NCBI RefSeq assembly: GCF_040448675.1
Contig: NZ_CP159289.1
Span: 5,811,001-5,875,000 of the forward strand
Length of the DNA stretch: 64,000 nucleotides
Direction: 5' to 3'
DNA from: Dyadobacter sp. 676
GTDB taxonomy: Bacteria; Bacteroidota; Bacteroidia; Cytophagales; Spirosomataceae
In this document: one piece after another, positions 41,007-60,353 of the stretch
Numbering within the stretch: the first letter of the stretch is position 1
How the letters are laid out: every line of letters starts with the position of its first letter
Program-made: the position numbers and the translations under genes
The notes under the pieces: model-generated
Told to the model about the DNA's origin: nothing
The model's database searches: none
Seen by the model: only the letters and a program-made list of their open reading frames with translations

Positions 41007-41035
41007 GAAAATACAAAATAAAGGCGCATCCCCGG

Positions 41036-42544
41036 CTATTCCATCGAGGGTTTAAGCGCCGTGTACCGCAAATCCCTTAGCCGTATGCCCTTTGACGATT
41101 TGATCGTCAAGTCCGACATCGGGGTATCCGGGAAGAAGATATCCGTCATGACGGTAAGGCCGCCGTCCGCAAAAAGCTCCACCGAGGCCACATCTGCCAC
41201 GAGCGTCAATGCAATCCCCGAGTCCTTCGATAGTCTCGGGGCGGTGTGCTTTTGCCCGAAACCCGCTTCGAAGTCCGTCTTGCCCGATCTGGAACGGTCG
41301 ATGTAATATTGGTTGGAGGCCTTGTCGTACCCGATCAACAGCTCGTTGCCCGATTTATTGGAAAGTACCAGTTCGAAATCGTCGGCAGTGGCGGTTTTGA
41401 AATCCATGCGGAACAGGCCGGAAGCATTTCCGCCTTTCGGCGACAGCTGTACGGGTGCTTTCACGGCAATTTCGCTTTTCGAAACGACCTCACCTTCAAT
41501 GGCTTCCAGTTCCTTCGCCGGGATAGACGTGAGGTACAATTCCTTGCCCGCCGCTTTCAGGCCCAGCTCGCGGGAAATCGTGTTGGCGCTGCGCCATGGG
41601 TCGGTCGGTACCTGGTTGGCATATTGCCAATTGCTCATCCAGCCCATCAGCAGCGTGCGGTTGCCGGTGTTCGAGAAAGTGACGGCAGCATAGTTGTCGG
41701 CGCCCCAGTCGAGCCATTTGATTTCTTTGGAATAAGGGGTAAATGTCCTGCCATCGAAATCGCCGACGAAGTACTGGCCTGCCGAGCCCTTGTTCGGACC
41801 GCCGGGGTTGATATTCACGATCAATACCCACACCTGCCTGCCTTCGTGCGTGAGCGGGAACAGGTCCGGGCATTCCCACACCCCGCCATGCGCGCCCGCA
41901 TCGGCACCGAACTCGCTTTCCTTCGACCATTTTTTGAGATCCGGGGAGGAATAAAAAGTAATACGGTCCTTCGTGGCGAGGGTCATTATCCACTTTTTTT
42001 GCGGTTCGTACCACCGCACTTTCGGGTCGCGGAAATCGGAAATGCCGGGGTTAGGTAACACCGGGTTGCCGCTGTACTTGGTCCAGGTTTTACCTTCGTC
42101 GAGGCTGTATGCGATGCTCTGGTATTCGTGGCGGCCGGTTTTCTGCTTTTCCAAAACAGGGTTATGATGCGTGAAAATGGCTACCAGAGGCACTTTGCCG
42201 TCCTTTCCGAAGCCGGAAGTATTGTTCACATCCACCACGGCACTGCCCGAGAAAATGTAACCCAGGCTGTCAGGATAAAGGGCAATGGGCTGTTCTTTCC
42301 AGTACAGCATATCCTTGCTCGTGGCATGGCCCCAGTGCATGGGGCCCCACACTTTGGCCTCCGGGTAGTATTGGTAAAACAAATGGTAAGTGCCATTGTG
42401 GAACACCATCCCGTTCGGATCGTTCATCCAGTGGGCTTTCGGCGAGAAGTGGAACTGGGGACGGTATTTTTCAGGGGTGTCCTGGGCGTTTGCGGATGAC
42501 GCAAGTAGCGCGGCGACGAGTATCGAAGTGATCGTTTTTCTCAT
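41036..42544 (-). CDS. GH32 fructanase (exo-levanase/inulinase/invertase type)
   Basis: 502 residues with a signal peptide ending near ASSANAQ. All GH32 catalytic markers are present: nucleophile D42 in WMNDPNG, transition-state D173 in FRDPKV and acid/base E224 in WECPDLF. A five-bladed propeller (to about residue 330) and a C-terminal beta sandwich (FELVLSNKSG to LRDLRYTAL) complete the family. The retaining hydrolysis releases fructose from beta-fructans or sucrose; the 42-residue spacing and the absence of extra modules suggest exo action, but the linkage cannot be fixed by eye. It has no lipobox, so it is probably periplasmic. It follows SusD, after a hairpin repeat, and precedes the fructose-type sensor. 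Confidence 0.93.
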   Translation of the reverse strand: MRKTITSILVAALLASSANAQDTPEKYRPQFHFSPKAHWMNDPNGMVFHNGTYHLFYQYYPEAKVWGPMHWGHATSKDMLYWKEQPIALYPDSLGYIFSGSAVVDVNNTSGFGKDGKVPLVAIFTHHNPVLEKQKTGRHEYQSIAYSLDEGKTWTKYSGNPVLPNPGISDFRDPKVRWYEPQKKWIMTLATKDRITFYSSPDLKKWSKESEFGADAGAHGGVWECPDLFPLTHEGRQVWVLIVNINPGGPNKGSAGQYFVGDFDGRTFTPYSKEIKWLDWGADNYAAVTFSNTGNRTLLMGWMSNWQYANQVPTDPWRSANTISRELGLKAAGKELYLTSIPAKELEAIEGEVVSKSEIAVKAPVQLSPKGGNASGLFRMDFKTATADDFELVLSNKSGNELLIGYDKASNQYYIDRSRSGKTDFEAGFGQKHTAPRLSKDSGIALTLVADVASVELFADGGLTVMTDIFFPDTPMSDLTIKSSKGIRLRDLRYTALKPSME

Positions 42545-42551
42545 GTTTTAT

Positions 42552-42619
42552 TTTTTGTGCCACGAAGGCACGAAAATTCACGAAACGTATTCGTGTTTAA
42601 TTCGTGTCTTCGTGGCAAA
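42552..42619. repeat. Intergenic CACGAA-rich inverted repeat between susD and GH32
   Basis: CCACGAAGGCACGAA near 42560-42574 pairs with TTCGTGTCTTCGTGG (42601-42615) with one mismatch, and an inner ACGAA/TTCGT pair adds a second stem. Words of this kind recur between genes in Cytophagales genomes, so it may be a dispersed repeat. It sits in the 81-base gap and could stabilize or attenuate the operon mRNA. Confidence 0.5.
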
Positions 42620-42625
42620 TTAAAC

Positions 42626-44338
42626 TTAGTATCCAGGATTCTGAACATATAGCCCCTTCGTAAAGCTGATCTCCCGCTGCGGGATAGGCAGATATTCATC
42701 CCGCCCCGCAGTGAATTTGGCAGTCGCCAGGAAAGGCCTTCTTACTTTTTCCTTTTCAAGATACGCATTCAACGTCTGCTCCGCGATACCCCAGCGCACC
42801 AGATCGAAGAAACGCGGGCTTTCCGTCGCGAATTCGAGCCTTCTTTCCCAGCGCAGCGCCTTTCTGGCGTAATCCTGCGTCCAGCCCGAAGCGGGATATT
42901 CCCTGATATGATACTTCGAAGGGGAACTGCCATCCGTCTTTTTCAGCCGCGCGGTACTCGCGGCGGCACGTCTGCGGATCTGGTTGATGAGCGGCAATGC
43001 CAATGCGTGCTGTCCGAGCTCGATGTACGCCTCGGCCTGCATGAGCAGCACGTCGTCGTAACGGATAATGTCGATGTTTTTGGAGCTGCCGATGAACGGC
43101 CCTTCCTTGTGGTACGACGGGCTCGTGGCCAACTGCTGTTCTTTCATCGTATGGAAAAACCCATATACCCCCGGGTCGCGCACCCAGCTGTTGCTGAACG
43201 GCTTGGTTGCATCGTATTTGTAAGGATGGCCATCGATGCCGATGGTATGGTCCACGCGCGGGTCGACCGTCTCGGTAGCAAAATCGACGTTTTTATCATT
43301 GAACGTCTCGAAGAGCGGCAAGCCGTCGGCGTCGGTCCGGTAAGCATTGGCGAGGTTCTGGCTGGGCTGGTGGAAGCCGCAGCAGCCGTATTGCGGCGCG
43401 CCGTGCGGATAATTGAGGCCGGTTACATAGCTGAGGCGACCTACCGCTGTGCCGTCGTTGATGGAATACTGGATCGCGAAAATGGATTCGGGGCCGTTTT
43501 CAGTCTCGGCAATGAAGTTTTCGGCGAAATCGGGTTGCAGACTGTACTGGCCGGAGCCGATCACCTGCTGGGTGAGCGTTACGACTTCCTGCAAACGGTT
43601 TTTGTTGATCGCCGTCACCTTGTGGTTTGCGTCCTGCTCATATGCCTGGAAAAGCCGCAGTTTGGCGAGGTATGCGGCTGCCGACAGCTTATTGGCCCGG
43701 CCGATCTGGCTTTGCTTCTGCGGCAGGTTGTCGACCGCGAACCGGAAGTCCTCGCCGATCTTGTTCCAGAGCTCGTCGTTGGAATACCGCACGTTGGACT
43801 CTTTCAGAATATCGTCGCTCGACAGCTTTTCATCGATGTAGGGAATATTCTTGAACAGCATTTTAAGCATAAAGTGTGAATGTCCGCGCAGGAAACGCAT
43901 TTCGGCAATGCGGGTAGTGCGCAGCGGGAATTCCGCCTCGGTTAACGCGTCGAGGCTGTTGAGGGCGGCGTTGGCCCTCGAAATCGCTTTGTAAAAATTT
44001 TCCCAGGTGAATGGATGCATCATCCCGAAATCGGGGCGAGTAAGATTGTAGTGCTCGTAAAAGTCGACTTCCGCCACGTCCGATACGCCGCCTCCGCCCT
44101 TGTAGGCGTCGTCGGAGCGGACGCTGCCGTAAACCCACATGCTGGTCATGGGGCCGATCATATCGTCGTTGCCGATGCCCGCGTAAGCCGCGGTGCAAAG
44201 CGATTCGGCCGCGGACGCGGATTTGAGGTTTTCCGACGACAGCAGCCCTTCCGGCTGGTAATCTAGGAAGTCGTTGCAGGAGGTATTGACCAGCATTGTC
44301 CCACTGACAATCAGGCCGAATATGTATTTGCTTTTCAT
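42626..44338 (-). CDS. SusD/RagB-family outer-membrane glycan-binding lipoprotein (fructan locus)
   Basis: 570 residues with a lipoprotein signal (LVNTSCNDFLD, Cys near 21). The SusD pattern is clear: RIAEMRFLRGHSHFMLK in the TPR-like core, NIDIIRYDDVLLMQAEAY and INQIRRRAA in the second half, and RWERRLEFATESPRFFDLVR then YLPIPQREI at the end. SusD proteins bind the glycan at the cell surface and close the paired SusC channel as a lid. It lies 20 bases after SusC and shares the operon with GH32 and fructokinase, so the ligand is probably a fructan. Substrate residues are not identifiable by eye. Confidence 0.94.
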   Translation of the reverse strand: MKSKYIFGLIVSGTMLVNTSCNDFLDYQPEGLLSSENLKSASAAESLCTAAYAGIGNDDMIGPMTSMWVYGSVRSDDAYKGGGGVSDVAEVDFYEHYNLTRPDFGMMHPFTWENFYKAISRANAALNSLDALTEAEFPLRTTRIAEMRFLRGHSHFMLKMLFKNIPYIDEKLSSDDILKESNVRYSNDELWNKIGEDFRFAVDNLPQKQSQIGRANKLSAAAYLAKLRLFQAYEQDANHKVTAINKNRLQEVVTLTQQVIGSGQYSLQPDFAENFIAETENGPESIFAIQYSINDGTAVGRLSYVTGLNYPHGAPQYGCCGFHQPSQNLANAYRTDADGLPLFETFNDKNVDFATETVDPRVDHTIGIDGHPYKYDATKPFSNSWVRDPGVYGFFHTMKEQQLATSPSYHKEGPFIGSSKNIDIIRYDDVLLMQAEAYIELGQHALALPLINQIRRRAAASTARLKKTDGSSPSKYHIREYPASGWTQDYARKALRWERRLEFATESPRFFDLVRWGIAEQTLNAYLEKEKVRRPFLATAKFTAGRDEYLPIPQREISFTKGLYVQNPGY

Positions 44339-44358
44339 ACAATGTGCTTTTCCGGGAG

Positions 44359-47300
44359 TTAGAAAGAAATGTTCAAACCAAATGTGAATGTCCTTGGGAT
44401 CGGGATGGCGTTGATGTCCGTCCGCTCGGGGTCCGGGCCGCTGAACTGCTTCGATTTGATCAGGAAGAGGTTTTCGGCCATCAGGTACATCCGCACGCGT
44501 TGCAGCCTGATCTTCTGCACCAACTCCTGGTTCAGCGCGTAACCCAGCTGAATGTTGCGCAGTTTGAAATAGGAAGTATTGACATTGAAATAATCTGAAG
44601 AACGCGTCTCGTTATTGGCATCCGACAACGACAATGCGGGGATTTTGGAACCGGTATTGGTTGGCGACCAGGCATCGAACACGCCCGGGCCTACATTCTC
44701 GCGGCCGCGGATGAAGTTGTTGTAGAAGGTATAAATATCGAATCCCTTCCGGCCTGCGATGCCCGAGCCGAAAACGGCGAGATCGAACGACTTATAGAAT
44801 GCCTCCACTTTCAGATTGTACTCAAAGGCAGGCAGGGTTGTGCCGAAAAACACCCGGTCGAGGTCGTCGATACGGTTATCGCCATTGGTATCCACGTAAC
44901 GGATGCGGCCCGGGCCTGCGCCCACCTGCGCGGGAGCGGCGTCCACTTCGGCCTGGTTCTGGAAGAGGCCATTGGTTTTGTAACCAAACAAATCGAACTG
45001 CGAATGGCCGAGGATCGTCTGGATCGCGTTACCGGGGTAGGCGGCGCGCACTTCTTCGGGCAGGGATGTGATTTTATCGCGGAAACGGCTCACGCCCGCC
45101 ATGATATTGTAGGTAAAATCGCCCTTTGGCCGCGCGTAGTATCCCGCCGAGAACTCGAAGCCCCTGTTGGACTTCGCCGCGCCGTTCAGCACGCGCAATT
45201 GCCCTTCGCCTACCGCGGAAGCCACCGGCGGGGTGATAAGGATATCGCTGGTTTTGCGCGTAAAGTAGTCGAACGACCCCTGGATCATCCCGTCGAAAAG
45301 CCCGAAGTCGAGCCCGAAATTGGCCTCGTCGGTGGTTTCCCATTTCAGGTTGGGATTAGCGCCCTGGATCGACACGAAGCCCGAGGGCAGGTTGCCTGTG
45401 TTGGCCCCATTGAGGTCATAGGCCGTGCCGATATTATAGAACTGGTCGAAAAAGCTGTTATGGCCGTTCGGAAATTGCGACTGGCGGGCGCCGTACCGCG
45501 TATCATACAATCCGAAGCGGGCGAGGTCCCCGATCTCCTGGTTTCCAACCCTGCCGACCCCGGCCCGCAGTTTCAGATTGCTGATCCTGGTAATGCCTTT
45601 GAAAAAACTCTCTTTATCGATGCGCCAGCCCACAGAGGCCGCGGGGAAAATACCATAGGCATTCTCGGACCCGAAGCGGGAGGAGCCGTCGCGACGGATG
45701 GTGATCGCGGCCAGGTAGCGGTCCGAAAAGCCGTAATCGATCCGGGCGAACTGCGACAACAGCCTGCTGCCCGAGCCGGAACCGGTCACATTGGTATTGC
45801 CCGTACCCGCGTTGAGCACAAAATATTCCTTCGTTTGCACCGCGAAACCTTCTTTCCTCGCTATTTCAAAATCGGAGTCGTTTTTAATAGCCTCGATACC
45901 CGCCAGGAACTTGAAATGATTGTTGCCGAGGTCGAGGTTGTAGCGGGCGGTGTTCGACCAGGTAATGCTGAGAAAACGGTTCTGGTCGATCGTCAGGCTG
46001 TTGTTCGCGCGGCCGAACGAGCCTTCTTCGAAAGACTGTTCGATGTTTTTGAAACGGTAGGCCGCATTGTCGGCTCCGAGGCTGGTTTTGAGAAAGAAAT
46101 TTTTAAAAGGCTGGATTTCCACGAACACATTTCCGAACAGCGTCAGCCGGTGCGCGTTGTCCCATTTGTTGATCTCCTGCATGTGCAGCGGATTGTTACG
46201 GTCGGAATAGCCCGAACCGATAGCGCCGCCCCACGAACCGTCTTTGGCATATACCGGAATGGTAGGCGCCAGCGTAACCGCCAGGCCCGGCGTGGCCGCC
46301 CCGCCGATGTCGGTCGAGGCCAGGGTTTCGTTTGAGGAAGCGAGCTGCATGTTGGCCCCGATTTTAAGTTTGCCGTCGAATGCGCTGGTCAGCCCGTTGA
46401 TGCGGCCGCTGAGTTTGTCGTAATCGGTGTAACGGAGCATGCCGGTGTTTTTGTAATATCCCAAATTAATTTGAAGCGATGAGGCGCCGTTTCCGCCTGA
46501 AATGGTGAGCTCATTGTTCGTGACGATGCCGGTTTTGTACATCACCTTCTGCCAGTCGGTATCGCCGGCGGGCATACTGGGGTTACCGCCCACGAAAGGC
46601 TGTACTTTCACGCTATTCAGGACCGGGTTGCTGAAATCCCTGTTCCAGTCGAACTGGTACAGGGCCCCGTAGCCGTCTTCCGGATTCACCTTATCGTTCA
46701 CAGAAGCCTGCCACAATGCACGGCCCCTGTCGACGGCATTCAGCATTTTGAACCGCGCGTATTTCTCGGATTGGGCCGAAATGCTCGTATTGAAATCGAT
46801 ATTGATCTTTCCGTTGGCGTTCGAGCCGTTTTTTGTCGTGACGATGATCACCCCGTTGGAGGCCCGCGAGCCGTAGATCGACGAGGCCGACGCGTCTTTC
46901 AGAACCTGTATCGATTCGATGGAGTTGGGATTGAGTCCCTGAAAAACCTCCGGGCGCTTGGTAGGCACGCCGTCAATAATGTAAAGCGGGTCGGTGTTGC
47001 CGAGGGTGTTGGCGCCGCGGATCAGGATCCGGGAGTTGGTGCCGTTCGGCGAGCCGGTTTTCTCGATGTACAATCCCGGCACGCGGCCCTGCAATGCCTG
47101 CATGGGATTCCCCGAGCTGATATTTTTCAAAGGAGCCATGTCCACCACGGCGATGGCACCGGTAAGATCTTCCTTTTTGGAAGAGGTATACCCGACCACC
47201 ACGACCTCGTTGAGGCTTTTCTGGTCGTAATCCAGCGTAATGTCGATAGCGGTCCGGTCGCCTATCGCCACTTCTTTCGTCTGCATGCCGATGTAGGAAA

Positions 47301-47520
47301 ACACCAATGTGGCCCCTGCGACGGGCGTAATGGCATATGCTCCCGAAACGTCGGTAACGGCACCGTTCGAAGTCCCTTTTTCAAGAACATTTACACCGGG
47401 AAGCGGCTCGCCGTCGGCACTCCTGACGACGCCCTTCACTTGTGCCCTGTTTTGCGCGTGGGCGGGCATGTTCACCACACAGGCGACCGCAAAGGCCACC
47501 AGCAGTAAAATTTTTCGCAT
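44359..47520 (-). CDS. SusC/RagA-family TonB-dependent transporter (fructan locus)
   Basis: 1053 residues. A signal peptide to about MPAHAQ is followed by a CarboxypepD_reg-like domain (VKGVVRSADGEPLPGVNV), the SusC linker (LNEVVVVGYTSSKKEDLTG), the plug (YIIDGVPTKRPE, VLKDASASSIYGSRASNG) and a long beta barrel ending in FTFGLNISF with the terminal aromatic residue. It imports oligosaccharides in a TonB-dependent way together with SusD. It is intact, unlike the SusC of the second locus. In the operon it follows the fructokinase by 35 bases. Confidence 0.95.
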   Translation of the reverse strand: MRKILLLVAFAVACVVNMPAHAQNRAQVKGVVRSADGEPLPGVNVLEKGTSNGAVTDVSGAYAITPVAGATLVFSYIGMQTKEVAIGDRTAIDITLDYDQKSLNEVVVVGYTSSKKEDLTGAIAVVDMAPLKNISSGNPMQALQGRVPGLYIEKTGSPNGTNSRILIRGANTLGNTDPLYIIDGVPTKRPEVFQGLNPNSIESIQVLKDASASSIYGSRASNGVIIVTTKNGSNANGKINIDFNTSISAQSEKYARFKMLNAVDRGRALWQASVNDKVNPEDGYGALYQFDWNRDFSNPVLNSVKVQPFVGGNPSMPAGDTDWQKVMYKTGIVTNNELTISGGNGASSLQINLGYYKNTGMLRYTDYDKLSGRINGLTSAFDGKLKIGANMQLASSNETLASTDIGGAATPGLAVTLAPTIPVYAKDGSWGGAIGSGYSDRNNPLHMQEINKWDNAHRLTLFGNVFVEIQPFKNFFLKTSLGADNAAYRFKNIEQSFEEGSFGRANNSLTIDQNRFLSITWSNTARYNLDLGNNHFKFLAGIEAIKNDSDFEIARKEGFAVQTKEYFVLNAGTGNTNVTGSGSGSRLLSQFARIDYGFSDRYLAAITIRRDGSSRFGSENAYGIFPAASVGWRIDKESFFKGITRISNLKLRAGVGRVGNQEIGDLARFGLYDTRYGARQSQFPNGHNSFFDQFYNIGTAYDLNGANTGNLPSGFVSIQGANPNLKWETTDEANFGLDFGLFDGMIQGSFDYFTRKTSDILITPPVASAVGEGQLRVLNGAAKSNRGFEFSAGYYARPKGDFTYNIMAGVSRFRDKITSLPEEVRAAYPGNAIQTILGHSQFDLFGYKTNGLFQNQAEVDAAPAQVGAGPGRIRYVDTNGDNRIDDLDRVFFGTTLPAFEYNLKVEAFYKSFDLAVFGSGIAGRKGFDIYTFYNNFIRGRENVGPGVFDAWSPTNTGSKIPALSLSDANNETRSSDYFNVNTSYFKLRNIQLGYALNQELVQKIRLQRVRMYLMAENLFLIKSKQFSGPDPERTDINAIPIPRTFTFGLNISF

Positions 47521-47555
47521 AAGGGTATTGATTAAAATTAGGGTAAGATGAAAAA

Positions 47556-48476
47556 TCAGTGGGCAACGACTTGTTGCCGCATATGGATCAGGGCGTGGAT
47601 GTCGGTTTCGGTAAATGCGGGCAATGCGCCTTTTTTGCTGGCAACCGATGCCCCTGCCGCACAGGCAAATTCGAGCGAGGCGGGCAGCGGATGTCCGGTA
47701 GCGAACCGGTAAAGGAATGCGCCGAGGAACGCGTCGCCGCTGCCGATCGTGTCGGAAACGTCTACGGTGAATCCGCTGTGCCGGTGGTATTCGCCCCCGG
47801 CGGTGAGCACCATGGCACCTTCCGCCCCGCAGGTGAGCACAAGCATGTCGAGCCCGAACCGGTCTACGAGCACGGCCATGGCTTGCCGTTCGTTTTCAAA
47901 CGGTGCGAGCCAGCCGCTTACTTCCCGGAGCTCGTGCTCATTCATCTTCACGATGCGTGCGAAGGCGAGGAGTTCTGTCACCTGTTCGCGGGTATAATGC
48001 GGAGGCCGAAGGTTCACATCGAATATCGGCACGCATCCGTGAGGCACACGCGTGCTGGCGAGGTAGCGCAGCAATGTATCGCGCGAAGTGCGGTCGCGGG
48101 AGGCGAGGGTGCCGTAAACGAAGAAATCGCTGGCAGCGACGCATTGGGCGGCTGCATGGTCGAACCGGATGTAGTCCCAGGCTACCGGGTGCAGGATTTT
48201 GTAGGTAACCTCGGTGCTGTCCGACACGTTGGCCTTGGCAATGCCGGTAAGGTGGGTTTCCCCTGTTTGTACCCACCTGGTCGAAAGGCCTTGCTCAGCC
48301 ATAAATGCGAGCAGCTCAGCGCCCAGTTCGTCACGGCCGACGCGGCTGATAAAGGAAACGTCCATGCCATAGCGCTGCAAATGTACCGCGACGTTCATCG
48401 GTGCGCCGCCGGCGAGCCGGGCGTCGGGAAGTACGTCCCAGAGTACTTCCCCAAAAACGGTCAGTTTTGGTGTCAT
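47556..48476 (-). CDS. PfkB-family fructokinase
   Basis: 306 residues. The ribokinase-like pattern is complete: GGAPMNVAVHLQRYG near the start, FDVNLRPPHY, MNEHELREVSGW and the C-terminal signature DTIGSGDAFLGAFLYR with the catalytic Asp in GSGDA. The early segment FGEVLWDVLPDARLAGGAP is typical of bacterial fructokinases. It would convert imported fructose to fructose-6-phosphate with ATP. Its position between the porter and SusC in an operon with GH32 supports fructose as the substrate. It has no signal peptide and is cytoplasmic. Confidence 0.92.
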   Translation of the reverse strand: MTPKLTVFGEVLWDVLPDARLAGGAPMNVAVHLQRYGMDVSFISRVGRDELGAELLAFMAEQGLSTRWVQTGETHLTGIAKANVSDSTEVTYKILHPVAWDYIRFDHAAAQCVAASDFFVYGTLASRDRTSRDTLLRYLASTRVPHGCVPIFDVNLRPPHYTREQVTELLAFARIVKMNEHELREVSGWLAPFENERQAMAVLVDRFGLDMLVLTCGAEGAMVLTAGGEYHRHSGFTVDVSDTIGSGDAFLGAFLYRFATGHPLPASLEFACAAGASVASKKGALPAFTETDIHALIHMRQQVVAH

Positions 48477-48497
48477 GTCGTATGCGTTAACGGGTGA

Positions 48498-49832
48498 TTA
48501 GTGGAGTATCAATGTCTTTTCGATCTGTTCCAGCGAAGTGCCTTTGGTTTCGGGCATGAGTTTCCACACGAAGATGAGCTGGAGTACCATCATCCCGCAG
48601 AAGATCATGAAAGTGTTGCCGCCACCCAGGGTTTCGGCGATGTAGGGAAATGTAAAGGCGATCACCGCCGCCAGCAGCCAGTGCATGAAGCTGCCCATAG
48701 ACTGACCGGCCGCCCGGACCTGGTTGGGAAATATCTCGGAAATGAAAACCCAGATCACCGCGCCCTGCGATAGTGCGAAGAAGGCTATGTAAATGAAAAG
48801 GTAAACCGGCACCGCGTAGCCGCCGAGATTGCCGCTGTAAAATGCCTGCGCCACAAGCCCGAGCGTTGCTATTAACCCGAAAGAGCCTATGAACATCAGC
48901 GTGCGGCGGCCGAAGCGGTCGATGAGGTTGATGGCGATGAAGGTGAAGCAAAAGTTGACCAGCCCTACACCCGCCGACGAGAGCAATGCCGAACTTTTGC
49001 CCAGGCCGGCCATCTCGAAAATGCGCGGCGCGTAGTAAATGATGGCATTGATGCCCGAAACCTGGTTGAAAAAGGCAAAGAGCAAAGCCAGCAATACGGG
49101 CAGTTTGTATTGGGAAGAAAAAATGGAAACGGCAGCACCGTCCTGCTTGCCTGCATGGGCGGAATTCCTGATATCGGCAACGATCCCGCTGACGTCGATC
49201 CCGCTATTGGCGACGGTGAGTATCCGCCGTGCCTCCTCGATTTTGCCGCGTTTTACAATCAGCCAGCGGGGGCTTTCAGGGACAAACAGTACCGCGACCA
49301 GGAAGAGCAGCGACGGAAAAGCCTGCACGCCGAGCATCCATCGCCAGTCGTTGTCGCCCATGCCAACGAGCAGATAATTGGAAAGGTAGGCAACCAGAAT
49401 GCCCAGCACCACATTGAACTGGAACATTGCCACCAGCCGCCCCCGTGCGTTGGCGGGGGATATTTCGGATATGTAAAGCGGCGCGGTAACGGATGAAATT
49501 CCGACGCCGATTCCGCCGAGAAAGCGGAAAATGAGAAAAGAAACCCAGTCGGACGCCAGCGCGGAACCGATCGAAGAAAGCAAATACAGGACCGCGATGG
49601 CAAAAAGCGTGTATTTGCGGCCATAGCGCTCGGAAGGAATCGCGCCCGTGAGGGATCCGAGGACTGTGCCTATCAACGCGATGGAAACCGTGAAACCGTG
49701 TTGTACCGTGGTAAGGCCCCACAGTTGCTGGATCGATTTTTCGGCGCCCGATATTACGGCTGTGTCAAATCCGAATAAAAAACCGCCCAGTGCCACTGTG
49801 AATGCCCAGAAGATTACCTTTTTGCTTGTCAT
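48498..49832 (-). CDS. MFS sugar porter family transporter
   Basis: 444 residues from the ATG MTSKKVIFWAF. About 12 membrane helices are visible and the sugar-porter signatures are present: GFLFGFDTAVISGA in helix 1, SERYGRKYTL and FRFLGGIGVGISS, PESPRWLIVKRGK after helix 6, NQVSGINAIIYYAPRIF in helix 7 and a closing PETKGTSLEQIE. Such proteins move hexoses with protons (XylE/GLUT type). It is first in the fructan operon, so it probably carries fructose into the cytoplasm. An upstream in-frame TTG start would add 15 residues without membrane features. The promoter should lie in 49833-50053, a region with AT-rich stretches. Confidence 0.93.
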   Translation of the reverse strand: MTSKKVIFWAFTVALGGFLFGFDTAVISGAEKSIQQLWGLTTVQHGFTVSIALIGTVLGSLTGAIPSERYGRKYTLFAIAVLYLLSSIGSALASDWVSFLIFRFLGGIGVGISSVTAPLYISEISPANARGRLVAMFQFNVVLGILVAYLSNYLLVGMGDNDWRWMLGVQAFPSLLFLVAVLFVPESPRWLIVKRGKIEEARRILTVANSGIDVSGIVADIRNSAHAGKQDGAAVSIFSSQYKLPVLLALLFAFFNQVSGINAIIYYAPRIFEMAGLGKSSALLSSAGVGLVNFCFTFIAINLIDRFGRRTLMFIGSFGLIATLGLVAQAFYSGNLGGYAVPVYLFIYIAFFALSQGAVIWVFISEIFPNQVRAAGQSMGSFMHWLLAAVIAFTFPYIAETLGGGNTFMIFCGMMVLQLIFVWKLMPETKGTSLEQIEKTLILH

Positions 49833-50053
49833 GATTTTGTAATTGATTTCTGACGAAGCTACCGGCTCTCCGGGCAAACTATTTTAGATTCCGTACCAAA
49901 AGTTTTTAAATTCTAAACTCCCTTTTTTTAATATTATAATGCTGATTATTAGTTATTTGTGATCTCGCACTGACGCGCGGTTTTCAGATTTGTTTCAAGG
50001 TTTTTCAGGAATGTTACCAGTCGGGCCCCTTCGCGAAAACGGAAGGGGCCATG

Positions 50054-52082: not shown

Positions 52083-54038
52083 ATGCATCGCATGCCATAC
52101 TTTTCCATTCCCGGTTGCCGCAAGCCCATTTTGCTAATCGCATTATTTGTGATCGGCGTGTTCGGGCACGCATTTCCCCAACGCACCGTGGAGATAGCCG
52201 ATTCGCAGGATCAGCACATGTTCATCGGGGATGAAATTCAATATCTGGAAGATACCACCGGCGGATACACACTTGCGGAAATTTTGTCGCCCGCATTGAA
52301 CGGCCGTTTTGTGAACAGCCGGACCAACACGCCCCAGAATTACAACCTGAAATCCACCTATTGGTACAGGATCAGGATCCGGCATAACCCGGAAAGCGGC
52401 AAGAATTGGGTGCTGGAATTTTTCGATCAAACGATCGACGATATTACGGCCTATTCGCCGGACGGGCACGGCGGATACGTGATGCGCCGGATGGGTGACC
52501 AGCTGCCATTCCGAAACCGGGAATACGCCCACAAAAATTTCGAACTTAATATTCCGAACACAACCGCGTACGACGGCGCCTATTATTTCCGGGTGAAATC
52601 CCACCAGACGGCGGACGCCATTATCGTGCTGCGCTCGGTGAACCGTTTCATTCAGTACGCACTGGATGAATATTTCATCTTCGGCATATTTTACGGAATG
52701 GTGCTGGTTTTCAGCTTCTACAACCTGATGATGTACCTCGCGGTGCGGCAGGTGCAATATCTGTATTACGTTCTGTATAACCTCAGTGTGGGCCTTTTTG
52801 AGATGTGTATCGACGGCATAGCCTATCAGTATCTATGGCCCGATGCGCCGCACTGGAACCAGTACGCCTATGGCATAGCCCTGTACGGTATCAGTATTTT
52901 CGCACTGCAGTTTACGAGGACATTGCTCTACACGCATAAAAAAGCCCCTGTACTGGACCGTATCATTCTGGGGATAATGGTTTTGCGGACCCTGTTTTTT
53001 GCCGTTTGCCTCTTCATCGACACCGACTGGTTCAGTTACAAGTTCGTGGAGCTGGTCCCGCTCGCGGTAGCGTTTTACACAGGCATATACATTTACCGGA
53101 AAGGTTACCATCCCGCACGTTTCTTTGTTTTGGGATACACCTTTCTTTCTATCGGCTTCATACACAAGTTGTTGCTAATGTTGCACGTCGACGGCCTGAA
53201 TTTTGGCGTCGTCACCTATTACAGCCTGAGCATCTGTTTTGTGCTGGAAATGATTTTTCTCTCGTTCGCGATCGGCGACAAGGTGCGGGTGCTGAAAACC
53301 AAAAAGGATAAGGCGCAAAAACAAATCATTCACCAGATGAGGCTGAATGAAAAGTTGAAGGACTCACTGAACAGCAGGCTGGAAGCGCAGGTAGAAGAGC
53401 GGACGAGGGAAGTGCTGGAAAAGTCGGCGATTATCGAAGCGCAGAACCAGGAGCTGACGGAAGTCAATGCGCTTTTACAGAAACAGAAAGAGGAAATCCT
53501 GCAAATGAACCGGCTGCTGGAAAAGGATAACGAAGTGCTGCATACCAATGTGGTGAAAGTGACCCAGGCACGGGTGATGTCGGCGGAGGTGGATTTCGAG
53601 GAGTTCAGCAGGATTTACCCGGACAACGACAGCTGTTTCAGGTTTCTGGCGGCGATGAAATGGGGAAGCGATGCAGCCGGCGACCATTACGAATGCCGGA
53701 AATGCGGCCACAACCATTATTTTCACGGGCATTCGCCCCACAGCCGCCGGTGCGCCAAATGCGATTACGACGAATCGGTGATCGCCCATACGATTTTCCA
53801 GAATACCCGTATTCCGATCAACAAGGCATTTTATATGGTCTTTTTGATGTATACCACAAAGGGGAAAATTTCTTCTCACAAGTTGTCGGAAATCCTTTCC
53901 ATCCGGCAAGGCACCTGCTGGGCATATGCCAGCAGGATCAAAAAAGTAATGCAGGACCGGCGCAAGGAGATTGCCGCTTCCAGATCGGGCGAGGGATGGA
54001 GCCTGCTCGTGCTCGACCATTCTTTCGAAACAGCCTGA
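52083..54038 (+). CDS. 7TM-DISM receptor fused to an IS1595-type zinc-ribbon DNA-binding domain
   Basis: 651 residues. A signal-like N terminus is followed by a 7TMR-DISMED2 extracellular domain (about 40-185: TYWYRIRIRHNPES, YYFRVKSH), seven membrane helices (about 195-400: FGIFYGMVLVFSFYNLMMY onward), a coiled coil (400-490: QVEERTREVLEKSAIIEAQN) and a C-terminal domain. That last part has a zinc ribbon with C538, C541, C557 and C560 (YECRKCGHNHYF, RRCAKCDY), then TIFQNTRIPINKAFYMVFLM and a helix-turn-helix-like segment to about 625. This is the order of the N-terminal region of IS1595/ISXO2 transposases, without the DDE catalytic domain. It probably works as a membrane-anchored transcription factor for the SusCD-GH30 genes directly downstream. 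Confidence 0.82.
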   Translation: MHRMPYFSIPGCRKPILLIALFVIGVFGHAFPQRTVEIADSQDQHMFIGDEIQYLEDTTGGYTLAEILSPALNGRFVNSRTNTPQNYNLKSTYWYRIRIRHNPESGKNWVLEFFDQTIDDITAYSPDGHGGYVMRRMGDQLPFRNREYAHKNFELNIPNTTAYDGAYYFRVKSHQTADAIIVLRSVNRFIQYALDEYFIFGIFYGMVLVFSFYNLMMYLAVRQVQYLYYVLYNLSVGLFEMCIDGIAYQYLWPDAPHWNQYAYGIALYGISIFALQFTRTLLYTHKKAPVLDRIILGIMVLRTLFFAVCLFIDTDWFSYKFVELVPLAVAFYTGIYIYRKGYHPARFFVLGYTFLSIGFIHKLLLMLHVDGLNFGVVTYYSLSICFVLEMIFLSFAIGDKVRVLKTKKDKAQKQIIHQMRLNEKLKDSLNSRLEAQVEERTREVLEKSAIIEAQNQELTEVNALLQKQKEEILQMNRLLEKDNEVLHTNVVKVTQARVMSAEVDFEEFSRIYPDNDSCFRFLAAMKWGSDAAGDHYECRKCGHNHYFHGHSPHSRRCAKCDYDESVIAHTIFQNTRIPINKAFYMVFLMYTTKGKISSHKLSEILSIRQGTCWAYASRIKKVMQDRRKEIAASRSGEGWSLLVLDHSFETA

Positions 54039-54213
54039 GATACCCGCTCCCAAAACGTACCCCGCCGGATAACCCGCTTTTCCGCTTGGTGGAAATTTAC
54101 GCACTTTTTTTGGCAAAAATCGACGGTTTGCAGCCGTATCAACGTTCGGGGCCGCGTGTGCGTCCAGGCCGCTGTCACCGGCTGTAAATCAGGCAAATCG
54201 ACCGTCGTGGCCA

Positions 54214-54240
54214 ACGGTTCCGAACCGTATCAATATTGAT
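54214..54240. promoter_or_regulatory. Two adjacent palindromes upstream of SusC (candidate operator)
   Basis: ACGGTTC C GAACCGT (54214-54228) is an inverted repeat with 7-base arms, followed directly by the perfect 12-base palindrome ATCAATATTGAT (54229-54240). They end about 43 bases before the putative -33 element of SusC, a place where an activator could bind. The zinc-ribbon receptor encoded just upstream is the natural candidate. Confidence 0.5.
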
Positions 54241-54282: not shown

Positions 54283-54311
54283 TTGATTTTCTCAAACTAT
54301 GCCTAAATTTG
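54283..54311 (+). promoter_or_regulatory. Bacteroidota-type promoter of the SusC gene
   Basis: TAAATTTG at 54304-54311 matches the TAnnTTTG -7 consensus, and TTG at 54283-54285 lies 18 bases upstream, close to the usual -33 spacing. The ATG of SusC follows 59 bases after the box. Confidence 0.55.
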
Positions 54312-54370: not shown

Positions 54371-57338
54371 ATGGGAAAGAGAATTACGGTGTTCATTGCC
54401 ATGATTCTGGCGGCGGTAAGCCTCGCGAACGCGCAGGAGATCGTCGTGAAGGGGGTGGTCAGGGATCAGCAAAATCAGTCATTGCCCGGCGCAAGTGTGC
54501 TGGTGAAGGGAACGCAATCAGGTACTGTAACAGACGTAGACGGAAATTATTCGATCACCGTGCCCAATGAACAGGCGGTGCTGGTGGTCTCATTTATCGG
54601 TTACGAAACACAGGAAGTGACGGTAGGTTCCCAAACGAAGATCGACGTAACGCTCGGAGCGGACCTGAAAACGCTGAACGAGGTGGTAGTGATCGGTTAT
54701 GGTACGCAGAAACGAGGCGATGTGACGACTTCAATAGCGTCGGTCGACACGAAAGACATCGAAGAACGGCCGATTTTACAGGCGGCGCAAGCCTTACAGG
54801 GAAAAGCAGCGGGCGTACAGGTCACGCAGCCTTCCGGAAAACCGGGCAGCGCGTTGTCTATCCGTGTACGCGGGGCGACGTCCGTACAGGCGGGTAACGA
54901 ACCCCTGTACGTGGTCGACGGAGTGCCAACCATGGACACCCGCGACCTGAACGTGAACGATATCGAAAGTATCCAGGTATTGAAGGATGCATCTTCGGCG
55001 GCTATTTACGGCGCGAGGGCCTCGAATGGCGTAGTGATCGTCACTACCAAAAGGGGTAAGGCCAACCAGTCGCAGGTTAATTTCTCGGCCTATTACGGCT
55101 TTTCGAACATTGCCAAAAAGATCGACGTGCTGAATCCGCAGCAATATGCCGACCTGATGAATGAAATGGGGCATAACATCACGGTGGGCAGCGAAACGAC
55201 CGACTGGAACAAGGAAGTTTTCACCACCGGACATAACCAGAACTACCAGCTTTCATTTTCGGGCGGTAACGACAAGAACAGGTATTTTGTATCGGGCGCG
55301 ATCACCAAGGATCAGGGGATTATCAAGCCGGCCAGCTACCGGCGGTATTCGTTCCGCATGAACCTCGATAATCAGATCAAAAACTGGTTCAAACTGACGA
55401 CGAACGTCAGCTATTCCAATGCCAGGATCCGCGATGTGAAGGACAACAACAACGCGGGCCGCAATGCGGTGGTATTGGGTGCGCTGGGTGCTCCGCCGAC
55501 CATGGGCGTATATTCCCAGGATTCGGTAAGGGGAACGATTTTCTCGACAAATCCCCTTAAAGCAGGCTGGGACAATCCGCTGGCGGCCATGTTCGGGCCT
55601 GACCAGTCGGCCAGGGACAACCGGATTTTCGGCAATGTGGCCGGTGATTTCACGCTGGCCAAGGGGCTGGTGTTCCGTTCCAATTTCGGGATCGACTTTA
55701 TGAACCATGCCAATGACTATTACCTGGACCCATACCGCACAACCGAGGGCTGGGGAGCCAACGGCAGCACGCACGGACTCGGCAATGCGACGCGTTCCAA
55801 CTCCTTTACCTACCTCTGGGAAAATACGCTTAACTACGAAAAGAAATGGGAGAAGCATGAATTCTCGGCGCTGGCGGGTACGACCGTTCAGAAAAACAAC
55901 TGGAACAATTCCTATATCGCGGGCCGGGACTTCCCTTCGGACGGCGTTGTGAAAACGATGAACGCGGCCAATGAGATCACCGAAGCCTACACCGAGCAAT
56001 CGGAATGGTTTCTGAATTCCTATCTGGGGCGGTTGATGTACAACTTCGACAGCAAATACCTGATTACGGCCAACTTCCGGGCGGACGGGTCATCCAAGCT
56101 CGCCAAGGGAAACCAGTGGGGCTTTTTCCCGTCGGTGTCGGCCGGCTGGCGCATTTCGGCGGAGCCGTTCATGGAGGATGTCAAGTTCATCACCGACCTG
56201 GAAGCTGCGTGGCGGCTGGGGACAAAACGGTAACCAGGAAGGGCTGGCCAATTACGCATCCTATGGTTTGAACAGCTACACGCGCCGCACGCCTACCACG
56301 CCGCCTTCGGGCCCGGCCGTTACGCCTCCCACGTACGCGCCTAACCCCGACCTGCGATGGGAGACGACCACGCAGACCAACTTCGGTATCGACCTGAGTA
56401 TGTTGCAGGGCCGCCTCACTTTCACTGCCGACGCCTATTTGAAAAAGACTCACGACCTGCTGCTGAATGTGCCGTTGCCAAACACAAGCGGCTACACCTA
56501 CATACCCCGAAATTCCGGTAAGCTGGAAAACAAGGGGCTGGAATTCGTTTTGTCGAGCGTCAATTTTGATAAGTCGGATTTCCAGTGGACGACCGATTTC
56601 AACATTGCATTCAACCGCAACAAAATCACCGAACTGCAACTGAGCAAAATTTATCGCTACGCCGAGGTGGAAGGCCGGAGCGACCAGATCATCATTTTGC
56701 AGGAAGGGGCTTCCCTGGGAACGTTTTACGGTTACATCGCCGATGGCGTAAATCCGGAAACCGGCGACATGATCTACCGCGATATTAACGGCGACGGCGT
56801 TTTCTCTCCTTCCGACCGGACGGTCCTGGGCTCGGCACAGCCGAAATTTACTTACGGGATGAACAACAACCTGACCTACAAGAATTTCAGCCTGTCGTTC
56901 CTTTTCCAGGGCTCGCAGGGAAACAAGGCGTTCAATGCGTCGAGGCTGGAAACGGAGGGAATGTATGACAGCAAAAACCAGTCGACCGAGGTGCTGCGGC
57001 GCTGGCAAAAGGCGGGGGACATTACCGATATTCCGAGGGCAACCGACGGCAACGTCAACAACTCGCTGATTTCGTCGCGCTTTGTCGAAAACGCCTCCTT
57101 CCTGCGGATGAAAAGCGCCACGATCTCGTATGCGCTCGGTAAAGAGTTCGCCGACAAACTTAAACTGGGCCGGGCGACTGTTTACCTGACTGCCCAAAAC
57201 CTTTTCACGATCACCAAATACAAAGGGTTCGACCCCGAGGTGAATGCGTTCACGTCGAGCGGAGCCACCCTGGGTATCGACTACGGAACCTACCCGGTAT
57301 CGCGGGCATTTGTGGCGGGTCTCAATGTTCAGTTTTAA
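54371..57338 (+). CDS. SusC/RagA-family TonB-dependent transporter, frameshifted (second glycan locus)
   Basis: Two frames join to 988 residues if one G is removed from the GG at 56200-56201, where the reading FITDL continues as KLRGGWGQNGNQEG, a conserved SusC stretch. The order is a signal peptide (SLANAQ), CarboxypepD_reg-like domain (VKGVVRDQQNQSLPGASV), linker (LNEVVVIGYGTQKRGDVT), plug (YVVDGVPTMDTRDL, VLKDASSAAIYGARASNG) and beta barrel ending AFVAGLNVQF. As written, the protein would lose about one third of the barrel and could not insert properly. Since SusD and GH30 follow intact, a sequence error is at least as likely as true inactivation. It starts 332 bases after the receptor and would import the products bound by SusD. 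Confidence 0.88.
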
Positions 57339-57350
57339 TTCAGGAATTTT

Positions 57351-58817
57351 ATGAAAAAGATCAATTATATAGCGATTGTCCTGGGATTATCCATACTGCT
57401 TCCGTCGTGCCAGGACCAACTCGATTTACAGCCTGTTTCCCAAACCGTGGTGGGCGAAAGCGGTAGCGGCACCGCCGGCTCGGCCATCAGGGACGTCGCG
57501 AGCGCCGAGGCCGCCCTGGCAGGGTGCTACGCGATTTTCAAGAACAGCTCCGCGGAATATTATGTGATGGATTACTTCATTCTGGGCGACGGGCAATCGG
57601 ATAACTCCTATGCGGGCGCCGACAATGCAGCCTGGTTTGAAGTGGATGAATTCAGGATGCTCTCGACCAATGCGGTTGCAGCCAGGGATTGGCAATATTT
57701 GTACAATCACGTGGCGAGCGCCAACTCTATTATCGCCAATGTACCCAAGGTAACCGACGCCTCGCTGCCGGCCGATCGTAAGGCGCAGATAGTCGGGGAA
57801 GCGAAATTTATCAGGGCAAGGGCCTATTTTGATCTGGTGAGGATCTATGGGGATGTGCCGTTGGTGGTGGACGAGTTGCCGACCATTACTTCCGAAAATG
57901 TGGACGAAATTTACGGCCAGCTTTATCCTGCCAGAAGTACGGCAGAGGAGGTATATGCCCAAATTGTTAAGGATCTGGACGAGGCTGCCACTACTGTGCC
58001 GAAATCGGGACCGAACAAAATGACGGTGACACCGGGAGCGGTGCATACGTTGCTGGCAAAGGTGTACGCAACTCGCAAGGACTGGGCGAAAGTGAAAGAG
58101 CATGCCGACAAGGTGATTGCATTGGGTTATACGCTGCTGCCCAATTTCGAGGATTTGTGGGATGGCAAGCACGAAAACAGCGCAGAAGCCATTTTTGAGC
58201 TGAATTTCGAAGACTGGTCGACCGGTGGAAACTGGGGTTCTTCCATGTTTTTCGGCACCGACTGGAAAAAATTCAATACCCCTTCCAATGACCTTGTAAA
58301 GGCTTATGACGACGAGAAGGACGTGGTACGCAAAGCATCGACGATTTATACGGCCAATGTGACAGGCAAATGGTCGGACAAATACTGGCCGTTGACAAAG
58401 TTCCCGTTTGCCTATAAAATGCGCAACACCGACGCCTCGCAAAATATCATCATGTACCGCCTGGCCGATGTACTGCTTCTAAAGGCGGAGGCATTGAACG
58501 AAACCGGCGATCTGGCAGGCGCCCGCGCGCTGGTTAACCAGGTGCGGACGCGCGCGAAGCTGCCGGCAACACAGGCGGCGGACCAGGCGACAATGCGCCT
58601 TGCGATCGAGAAGGAGCGCCGGCTGGAGCTCGCGTTCGAGGGGCAGCGCTGGTACGATCTGGTACGGACGGGCAGGGTGGTGCCGGTAATGGAGGCGGTG
58701 AAGGACGGCTCGGGCAACAGTTTGAACTACAAACTTACCGATACGAAACTCCTGTGGCCGATTCCGCAGGGCGAGATCGACAAGAATGCCAATCTGACCC
58801 AGAACAAGGGCTATTAG
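57351..58817 (+). CDS. SusD/RagB-family glycan-binding lipoprotein (second glycan locus)
   Basis: 488 residues with a lipobox (SILLPSCQDQLD, Cys near 20). SusD features include the TPR-like core (KAQIVGEAKFIRARAYFDLV, RIYGDVPLVVDEL), MTVTPGAVHTLLAKVYATR, IIMYRLADVLLLKAEALN with GARALVNQVR, and the terminal KERRLELAFEGQRWYDLVR plus LLWPIPQGEIDKN. It lies 12 bases after SusC, so the two are surely co-transcribed. It would bind the glycan processed by the GH30 enzyme next door. There is no sign of damage. Confidence 0.95.
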   Translation: MKKINYIAIVLGLSILLPSCQDQLDLQPVSQTVVGESGSGTAGSAIRDVASAEAALAGCYAIFKNSSAEYYVMDYFILGDGQSDNSYAGADNAAWFEVDEFRMLSTNAVAARDWQYLYNHVASANSIIANVPKVTDASLPADRKAQIVGEAKFIRARAYFDLVRIYGDVPLVVDELPTITSENVDEIYGQLYPARSTAEEVYAQIVKDLDEAATTVPKSGPNKMTVTPGAVHTLLAKVYATRKDWAKVKEHADKVIALGYTLLPNFEDLWDGKHENSAEAIFELNFEDWSTGGNWGSSMFFGTDWKKFNTPSNDLVKAYDDEKDVVRKASTIYTANVTGKWSDKYWPLTKFPFAYKMRNTDASQNIIMYRLADVLLLKAEALNETGDLAGARALVNQVRTRAKLPATQAADQATMRLAIEKERRLELAFEGQRWYDLVRTGRVVPVMEAVKDGSGNSLNYKLTDTKLLWPIPQGEIDKNANLTQNKGY

Positions 58818-58895: not shown

Positions 58896-60353
58896 ATGAA
58901 AGCAAATCTGATAGCGACGGCCGTGAGTCTGGCCGTTGCGCTGAACGGTTGTTCGGCCGGAACGCCGGCGACTGACAGTCCCGGCCCGGTTGATACCACT
59001 TCTTCCGGCAAAGTAGCCGTGTGGGTTACCAACGGCCAGCAAAGCAAATTACTAAAAAACGAAAACCCTGTCACGATCGGCAAGGTGGGCGCAGTCGCAC
59101 CATCGGCCCACCTGATCGGGATCGACTTTTCGACCAAACTGCAAGAAATGGATGGCTTTGGGGCCGCGCTTACGGGTTCTTCGGCCTACCTGATCAACCG
59201 GAAACTCAACGTATCGCAGCGTGAGGCCCTGCTTAAAGACCTTTTTGATCCGCAGACGGGAATCGGTATAAGCTACCTGCGCGTTACAATGGGCGCATCG
59301 GATTTCTCGCTGGAAGATTTCACCTATAACGATCTGCCCGCAGGGCAAACGGATCCCGGGTTAAAACAATTTTCCATTTCGAAAGATCAGGCGGACCTGT
59401 TGCCCGTTCTGAAATCCGTAGTCGTGTTGCAGCCGGCGATCAAAATTATGGCCACCCCGTGGTCGGCGCCCGCGTGGATGAAAACGAATGGCAAACTGGC
59501 CGGAGGGAGCCTTAAACCGGAGTGGTACGAGACTTATTCCAACTATTTTGTGAAATACCTCGATGCCTACCGAAAAGAAGGCATCGCTATCGACGCGATT
59601 TCGGTGCAGAACGAGCCTTTGCATGAGGCTGCGTACCCGTCGATGGGCATGGATTCGGTAGCGCAGTGCAATTTTATCAAAAACCACTTAGGGCCGCTTT
59701 TCCGGACGAAAGCGATCGGCACGAAGATCCTGTTGTACGACCACAACTGGGACAGGCCCGGTTATCCGCTGTCGATTTTGGGTGATCCGAAGGCCAACCA
59801 ATATGTCGCCGGTTCGGCGTTTCATGCGTATGGCGGGAACGTGTCGGCGATGAGTCAGGTCCATGACCGGTTTCCCGACAAAGGGTTGTATTTCACTGAA
59901 ATATCCGGCGGCCGCTGGGCCACCAATTTTGCCGACAACCTGAAATGGAATATGTCGAATATTTTCATCGGAACTGCCAACAACTGGTCGAAGAATGCGC
60001 TCTTGTGGAACCTGGCGCTGGATGAAAACGATGGCCCGAAAAATAAGGGCTGCGATAACTGCCGTGGCGTGGTGACTATCGCCTCCAACGGCAGCGTGAC
60101 GAAAAACGTGGAATATTATGCGATTGCCCATATGTCGAAATTCGTTCGCCCGGGCGCATTCCATGTGCAGTCGGACAGGCTGGGCGCGTCGACTGGCCTC
60201 GAACATGTGGCGTTCCTCAACACGGACGGTTCCAAAGTACTGGTAATACTAAACCAGAGCGCCGACAACAGAAAGTTCACCGTTTCATTCGGCGAAAATC
60301 AATTTAGCTACACGATCGACCCCAATGCGGTAGCGACACTTGTGTGGAAGTGA
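58896..60353 (+). CDS. GH30 glycoside hydrolase lipoprotein (candidate beta-1,6-glucanase)
   Basis: 485 residues. A lipobox-like start (VALNGCSAG, Cys near 19) indicates a membrane lipoprotein. The clan A barrel carries GH30 motifs: EMDGFGAALTGSSAYLI near residue 85, YLRVTMGASDFSLEDFTY, MATPWSAPAWMK, acid/base E240 in ISVQNEP and nucleophile E335 in YFTEISGG. A C-terminal beta domain ends VLVILNQSADNRKFTV. The sequence resembles GH30 glucosylceramidase/beta-1,6-glucanase types more than the xylanase subfamily, as in the Bacteroides enzyme that cuts beta-1,6-glucan; this is inference. It closes the SusCD operon (78 bases after SusD), so the locus probably uses a beta-glucan. Confidence 0.9.
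   Translation: MKANLIATAVSLAVALNGCSAGTPATDSPGPVDTTSSGKVAVWVTNGQQSKLLKNENPVTIGKVGAVAPSAHLIGIDFSTKLQEMDGFGAALTGSSAYLINRKLNVSQREALLKDLFDPQTGIGISYLRVTMGASDFSLEDFTYNDLPAGQTDPGLKQFSISKDQADLLPVLKSVVVLQPAIKIMATPWSAPAWMKTNGKLAGGSLKPEWYETYSNYFVKYLDAYRKEGIAIDAISVQNEPLHEAAYPSMGMDSVAQCNFIKNHLGPLFRTKAIGTKILLYDHNWDRPGYPLSILGDPKANQYVAGSAFHAYGGNVSAMSQVHDRFPDKGLYFTEISGGRWATNFADNLKWNMSNIFIGTANNWSKNALLWNLALDENDGPKNKGCDNCRGVVTIASNGSVTKNVEYYAIAHMSKFVRPGAFHVQSDRLGASTGLEHVAFLNTDGSKVLVILNQSADNRKFTVSFGENQFSYTIDPNAVATLVWK

Follow-up and report, generated by a model that had tools for sequence, protein, structure and literature searches.

We analyzed a 64,000-nucleotide window of the genome of Dyadobacter sp. 676 (contig NZ_CP159289.1), in which a gene on the + strand (52083–54038) encodes a 651-residue seven-transmembrane (7TM) receptor. 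The receptor carries an output domain of IS1595-transposase type, made of a zinc ribbon and a helix-turn-helix (HTH), and stands directly before a SusC–SusD–GH30 locus for glycan uptake. The original prediction had placed this reading frame correctly, in both coordinates and length, and its call of a sensor followed by seven helices agrees with Pfam and hydropathy. The 7TMR-DISMED2 periplasmic sensor domain (res. 50–183; 52230–52631, + strand; Pfam E = 3.4e-30) is followed by the 7TMR-DISM_7TM membrane domain (res. 196–400; 52668–53282, + strand; E = 2.1e-46), both far above cut-off. Seven hydropathy peaks fall at residues 198–398, and an additional N-terminal peak marks a signal or anchor. 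A linker helix (res. ~401–494; 53283–53564, + strand), assigned from sequence, is a probable coiled coil, the last part of which is a long helix in a structure model. It leads into the transposase-derived, DNA-binding-type domain (res. ~505–628; 53595–53966, + strand), where a zinc ribbon containing C538, C541, C557, and C560 precedes the HTH. Domain order and hydropathy together fit a periplasmic sensor, a membrane span, and a cytoplasmic C-terminal end.

Three genes follow on the + strand, encoding a SusC-type TonB-dependent porin (54371–57338), a SusD-type glycan-binding lipoprotein (57351–58817; PF07980, E = 8e-42), and a GH30 glycoside hydrolase (58896–60353) whose nearest solved relative is 5NGK. 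SusC occupies two frames in the window (54371–56233 and 56178–57338), split by an apparent frameshift at 56178–56233, and forms a single frame of 988 residues in 11 relatives and of 984 residues in one; the split reflects an error in sequencing or decay of the gene. In another member of the genus (G083; locus L040, 9708–11665), the receptor itself is divided over two frames, and SusC, SusD, and GH30 are intact.

By homology, the output domain derives from the N-terminus of an IS1595-type transposase, with the catalytic part absent. The Pfam profile Zn_ribbon_IS1595 matches residues 513–562 (E = 6e-4, 20.2 bits, under the 25.4-bit cut-off), and Zn_Tnp_IS91 scores about as well (E = 6.7e-4). The NCBIfam profile for IS1595 transposases, NF033547, aligns its positions 1–57 of 215 with residues 574–629 (E = 1.1e-6, 28.7 bits versus a 75-bit cut-off). 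These weak scores are not due to chance, because 38 of 41 divergent receptor C-termini match Zn_ribbon_IS1595 (best E = 1.9e-11), 33 of the 41 match NF033547, and BLASTP aligns the domain directly with transposases; when four whole receptors were scanned, Zn_ribbon_IS1595 appeared in one, at 0.001. In the BLASTP comparison with transposase genes from sister genomes of the same bacterial family, receptor residues 505–628 align with transposase residues 1 to ~125. The nearest transposases, L016 (40% identity, E = 4e-31) and L017 (36%, E = 6e-31), align over ~120 residues and share a colinear zinc ribbon and HTH with the receptor, which differs in having no DDE domain and in carrying the shared part fused behind a receptor. 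The alignment ends ahead of the first catalytic motif, recognized by eye, leaving ~23 residues in the receptor, and no DDE catalytic family was found in the Pfam scan of the receptor. The predicted resemblance to the IS1595 zinc ribbon and HTH is confirmed as homology, and the predicted lack of a DDE domain holds. The four cysteines proposed as zinc ligands are invariant across the 41 divergent receptors.

In a phylogeny built from 55 domains of the receptor side and 16 of transposases, one branch (support 99/97) separates the two sets. With few columns, an unknown root, and an unsettled bootstrap, this split fits a single origin but falls short of proof; its receptor side includes L108b, a very long-branched paralogue that lacks the zinc motif. 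A structure model of residues 469–651 has a mean pLDDT of 83, with block means above 90 over model residues 71–160. It shows a pair of short strands close to the cysteines, and its three helices (res. 579–591, 598–605, and 609–625) follow one another as in an HTH. Comparison of this model with structure libraries gave no significant match; HTH proteins of several families stood among the best weak rows, and this comparison was not used as evidence.

The receptor belongs to a sizeable family. Residues 480–651 matched 1098 database proteins at E ≤ 1e-3, and a 7TM domain is present in all 120 of the matches listed (the best 120 of 1098), among which Dyadobacter, Mucilaginibacter, Pontibacter, and Chitinophaga are named carriers. 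A divergent query matched 567 proteins. The full receptor found matches at E = 1e-60 in 130 of 390 genomes of the order, a figure not to be read as the frequency of the complete architecture, as at least four matches end at residues 459–474 and may lack the output domain. In a class-wide draw, it matched 16 of 395 genomes, seven of them outside the order. A literature search covering titles and abstract starts, limited to the top results of broad queries and reaching few subscription papers, returned no description of this architecture. The receptor class is real and conserved, and it is undescribed as far as that search reaches. Two arrangements of multiple copies were also seen. At locus L108 (9098–14030), the receptor lies beside a 799-residue paralogue without the zinc motif, both upstream of SusCD, and locus L101 (8055–11883) holds two tandem receptor copies with no SusCD within the 15.6 kb available.

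The gene neighborhood was surveyed in 53 loci besides the window's own, 13 of them belonging to the family and 40 to the order, each of at most 20 kb and some cut by contig ends. The loci were hand-picked from genus and order search matches rather than drawn at random. SusC and SusD were detected by BLAST with seeds derived from the window; for L081 and L134, an initial assignment of SusC by eye was confirmed afterwards. In 34 of the 53 loci, a same-strand SusC begins no more than 1.1 kb downstream of the receptor, and SusD stands behind it in 33 of these 34, the contig ending at that point in L081. An estimate based on a SusD proxy (84 SusD matches in a 7.28-Mb genome) puts the random expectation of SusC so near downstream at ~0.6%. 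SusC lies within 5 kb in five more loci, and 14 of the 53 have no SusC or SusD within 5 kb on the same strand. The tie of this architecture to SusCD loci is strong, with SusC directly downstream in 34 of 53, and has exceptions in those 14. Two refuting outcomes named in the original prediction could be checked from sequence, a C-terminal domain unlike IS1595 zinc ribbons and relatives unassociated with SusCD, and neither was observed.

The order receptor–SusC–SusD–GH30 is kept in 12 of 13 loci of the window's family, with differing flanking genes. Among 48 genomes of the genus, the 12 that carry the receptor are exactly the 12 with a GH30 orthologue at 73–100% identity. The association with SusC holds down to 29–40% receptor identity despite changed enzymes (GH16, GH3, and Glycoamylase); a scan of 16 proteins encoded downstream in less closely related loci gave six Pfam Glycoamylase, three GH16, two GH3, two LamG, two PKD, and one SusE. 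As for the proposed SusCD–GH30 setting, it is correct for the window and its close relatives but too narrow for the family, whose enzymes vary between GH30, GH16, GH3, and Glycoamylase; conversely, such a receptor is absent from the surroundings of all 18 GH30 loci taken from other lineages. Of seven loci from the class search, L127–L130 are linked to a polysaccharide utilization locus (PUL) and L131–L133 are not. The latter three, without nearby SusCD, place the receptor beside a protein of 1670–1800 residues and a similar set of other genes.

Members of the Glycoamylase family act on β-1,2-glucan, and the downstream enzymes of the receptor loci suggest β-glucans in general. A Bacteroides GH30_3 enzyme with 72% identity to 5NGK is described, in the part of the source covered, as cleaving β-1,6-glucan (PMC7553746). 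The substrate of the Dyadobacter locus is probably β-1,6-glucan, judging by this relationship.

Alignment of the receptor–SusC gap of the window with those of 12 family relatives revealed two conserved direct repeats, mostly of the form CGG-N8-CGTATCA. In the window, these are site A (CGGTTTGCAGCCGTATCA; 54124–54141, + strand) and site B (CGGTTCCGAACCGTATCA; 54215–54232, + strand), 91 bp apart. Of the 14 core columns, 13 show no variation among the family's 13 loci; of the remaining 296 gap columns, 36 do not vary. At least two CGTAT[CT] sites occur in 17 of 17 close linked loci, a set that includes the window and four loci from other families (L082, L128, L129, and L130), all with an adjoining SusC locus or, in L128, a GH2-led SusCD locus. 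The pair is spaced by 90–92 bp in 15 of them, 78 bp in L082, and 76 bp in L130; in L033 and L043, where three sites match, the two with spacing closest to 91 bp were taken. Of the matches, 36 have this orientation and two the opposite one. L081 and L134 were added after this count, and L081 has a repeat pair 88 bp apart ahead of SusC. Downstream of site B lies TAAATTTG (54304–54311, + strand), a likely −7 promoter box ahead of SusC, which we take to be of the Bacteroidota type and whose pattern occurs at chance number in the window. Sites A and B are roughly 170 and 80 bp upstream of this box.

A rule requiring two CGTAT[CT] on the SusC strand, 74–94 bp apart, finds a pair in all 17 linked gaps. 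It finds none in 13 receptor-less GH30–SusCD promoters, namely those of the 18 GH30 loci with an identified SusC, which come from other lineages and are not a matched control. Nor is there a pair beside 14 receptors without an adjacent SusC (L044 plus 13 of the 14 loci that lack a nearby SusCD, all but L101). The 18-bp pattern matches the window genome three times, twice at sites A and B, and a reversed control pattern also matches three times; the third match lies within a reading frame and was taken as chance. Palindromes at 54214–54240 had originally been put forward as operators, but they are mostly not conserved: none of the relatives has an exact copy of the first, and one of 12 has an exact copy of the second. 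The 4-bp arms of the first (CGGT-N5-ACCG) are kept in six of 12 relatives, and it overlaps one of the direct repeats, the pair of which is the conserved DNA feature here.

De novo searches in two other receptor families, using related and partly hand-chosen sequences and shuffles with fewer starts, also returned motifs. In one, TYAATGTTTTTaAaGcGtnA reached a log-likelihood ratio of 108, where the best of 20 shuffles gave 65 (16 sequences; a hand-chosen set from which near-copies and the different-looking L093 and L096 were excluded). In the second, GTGTGcaGTAAGcGTATA reached 219 against 56 in shuffles (17 sequences), an optimistic score, as 17 of 25 gaps were used after L104, L138, L141, and L143–L147 had been excluded by eye; a second element, TTTTTTCaTTGTTTTTTA, lies 83–86 bp upstream of GTGTGcaGTAAGcGTATA. 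A common AAGCG(TAT) core across families suggests one recognition mode. Exact k-mer enrichment in mixed-family gaps (24, and a subset of 13) found no 8-mer above the shuffle maximum; three 9-mers per set exceeded it, of the ATCGATTGC / CATCAATCG type and unlike the repeats, and the motifs given here come from positional and EM analyses. Inverted repeats around eight transposase genes, inspected by eye for an origin of the operator in transposon ends, contained nothing like CGTATCA. In one family, the gaps of L084–L088, L091, L094, and relatives contain a second, palindromic motif resembling CAATCGATTG / CAAACGTTTG, which we presume may be a LacI-type site.

We are fairly confident that the receptor is a membrane-tethered one-component transcription activator of a β-glucan uptake locus, probably one for β-1,6-glucan. 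The periplasmic DISMED2 domain would bind a glucan fragment, and the 7TM unit and linker helix would relay a conformational change inward. The cytoplasmic zinc-ribbon/HTH domain would then bind the two direct repeats (AA[CG]CGTAT[CT]A or close, ~91 bp apart), and the bound receptor would switch on susC-susD-gh30. The repeats leave the likely −7 box itself free, lying ~80 and ~170 bp ahead of it, which suggests activation. The tethered one-component glycan switch envisaged in the original prediction draws support from the IS1595 homology, the SusCD link, and also the conserved repeat pair, all of them sequence-level evidence. A prediction made for one further locus passed only in part. In G882, where the receptor is the last gene of the locus, the preset core has five sites in 8 kb, one of them within the distant SusC gap, and the 74–94 bp rule finds no pair. 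With the core loosened to AA[CG]CGT[AT]T[CT]A after the gap had been read, two matches occur in the 8 kb, both in the SusC gap and 89 bp apart.

The receptor might instead signal through another protein, with the repeats serving as operators of a separate transcription factor encoded elsewhere. Zinc ribbons are able to serve protein contacts, and the palindromic CAATCGATTG-like motif in the gaps of one family suggests other regulators; we nevertheless regard this as unlikely, since the domain stems from a transposase part expected to bind DNA and the repeat pair tracks the receptor (17 of 17 linked gaps against none of the 13 unmatched promoters from other lineages). The sign of control is not fixed by sequence, so a tethered repressor released from DNA on glucan binding could also be imagined. 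It appears rather improbable, because neither site covers the likely promoter box, both being placed well ahead of it, where an activator is expected, and because SusR, which has predicted operators of the same two-site layout, is described as an activator in the portion of the account covered (PMC3878776).

That the link to SusCD is passive, an old cassette being inherited or transferred together while the receptor regulates something else, is a more distant prospect and in our judgment very unlikely. The differing cassette flanks within the genus and the 14 of 53 relatives without SusCD nearby would fit it, but an association that lasts at 29–40% receptor identity, through a change of enzymes to GH16, GH3, or Glycoamylase, speaks against it. 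A read-through fusion of a receptor gene with a transposase fragment would account for the automatic annotation of some members as 'transposase'. Such an artefact has practically no probability left and is already refuted by conservation in sequence: 1098 proteins match the C-terminal region, all 120 matches listed have the 7TM domain, many genomes of the order carry the receptor, and the cysteines are invariant. Beyond the tethered activator itself, we lean toward a broader reading, in which an IS1595 transposase DNA-binding domain was domesticated once, long ago, by fusion to a 7TM carbohydrate receptor and so gave rise to a distinct class of Bacteroidota PUL regulators, which grip, from the membrane, two direct repeats 76–92 bp apart at β-glucan loci.

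Regulators of glycan loci in Bacteroides are listed, in the portion of the source covered, as SusR-like proteins, hybrid two-component systems (HTCS), and extracytoplasmic function (ECF) sigma/anti-sigma pairs; the same portion gives predicted SusR operators as repeats 67 or 77 bp apart and predicted HTCS repeats as ~21 bp apart (PMC3878776). Like SusR and SusR-like proteins as partly described there, the receptor is predicted to be a membrane protein with a periplasmic sensor and a cytoplasmic DNA-binding-type end; it adjoins SusCD, and its close relatives show two long-spaced direct repeats (76–92 bp). The domains differ: four SusR-type proteins scanned beside GH30–SusCD have Y_Y_Y, three of the four Reg_prop, and two of the four a LuxR/GerE-type HTH, in contrast to the 7TMR-DISM and IS1595-derived domains of the receptor. 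No kinship with SusR-type proteins was found in domains or in a comparison with the SusR-type protein L161, which aligns best in the linker helix (E = 0.002), SusR itself being outside the comparison. Their output domains, considered as possible relatives of the receptor's, gave no sign of it in the Pfam scan of the four or in the L161 comparison. By analogy, the receptor probably works like SusR but is no member of that group, because its sensor and its output domain are both of other kinds.

HTCS, such as the one at 38286–41006 of the window, exert single-protein control from periplasm to promoter at SusCD loci, as is proposed for the receptor. They do so through a histidine kinase, a receiver, and an AraC-type HTH, and Pfam finds no HisKA, HATPase_c, receiver, or AraC HTH in the receptor. 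That HTCS has a Peripla_BP_4 sensor and belongs to a separate fructan-type locus (38286–49877, − strand) with GH32, SusD, SusC, a PfkB kinase, and a sugar transporter. LadS and RetS are other 7TMR-DISM receptors. NicD, whose DISMED2 domain is linked to direct carbohydrate binding in the part of the source covered, shares the DISMED2 sensor and 7TM unit and differs in having a GGDEF output in place of a DNA-binding-type domain (PMC8544897). The only other 7TMR-DISM protein found in the genome has a C-terminus read by eye as a histidine kinase, with no SusC or SusD in its 12 kb. Recruitment of a mobile-element DNA-binding part for host gene control would be shared with transcription factors co-opted from mobile elements, the review of which, in the portion covered, treats Xre and ribbon-helix-helix factors and not transposase DNA-binding domains on receptors (PMC8987985).

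Beside some of the receptor-less GH30 loci stand other regulators or candidate regulators: Y_Y_Y proteins, ECF sigma genes (two loci, with FecR confirmed in one), and a DUF6377 protein. The last lies directly upstream of SusCD–GH30 in L160 (7214–8860) and is a candidate regulator of another type.

The receptor would be a one-component PUL regulator of the tethered kind, and its output domain is unreported for such regulators in the literature covered. If the proposed reading is true, it would add a further class of PUL regulator beside SusR-like proteins, HTCS, and ECF sigma factors, frequent in the order searched. Many PULs would gain a predicted regulator and, in close relatives, also a predicted operator. 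It would further be a clear example, in bacteria, of a transposase whose DNA-binding domain has become the output of a receptor, with the 7TM receptor being the transcription factor itself. The GH30–SusCD locus, which adjoins different kinds of regulator in different lineages, would be a place to study regulator exchange around a kept function.
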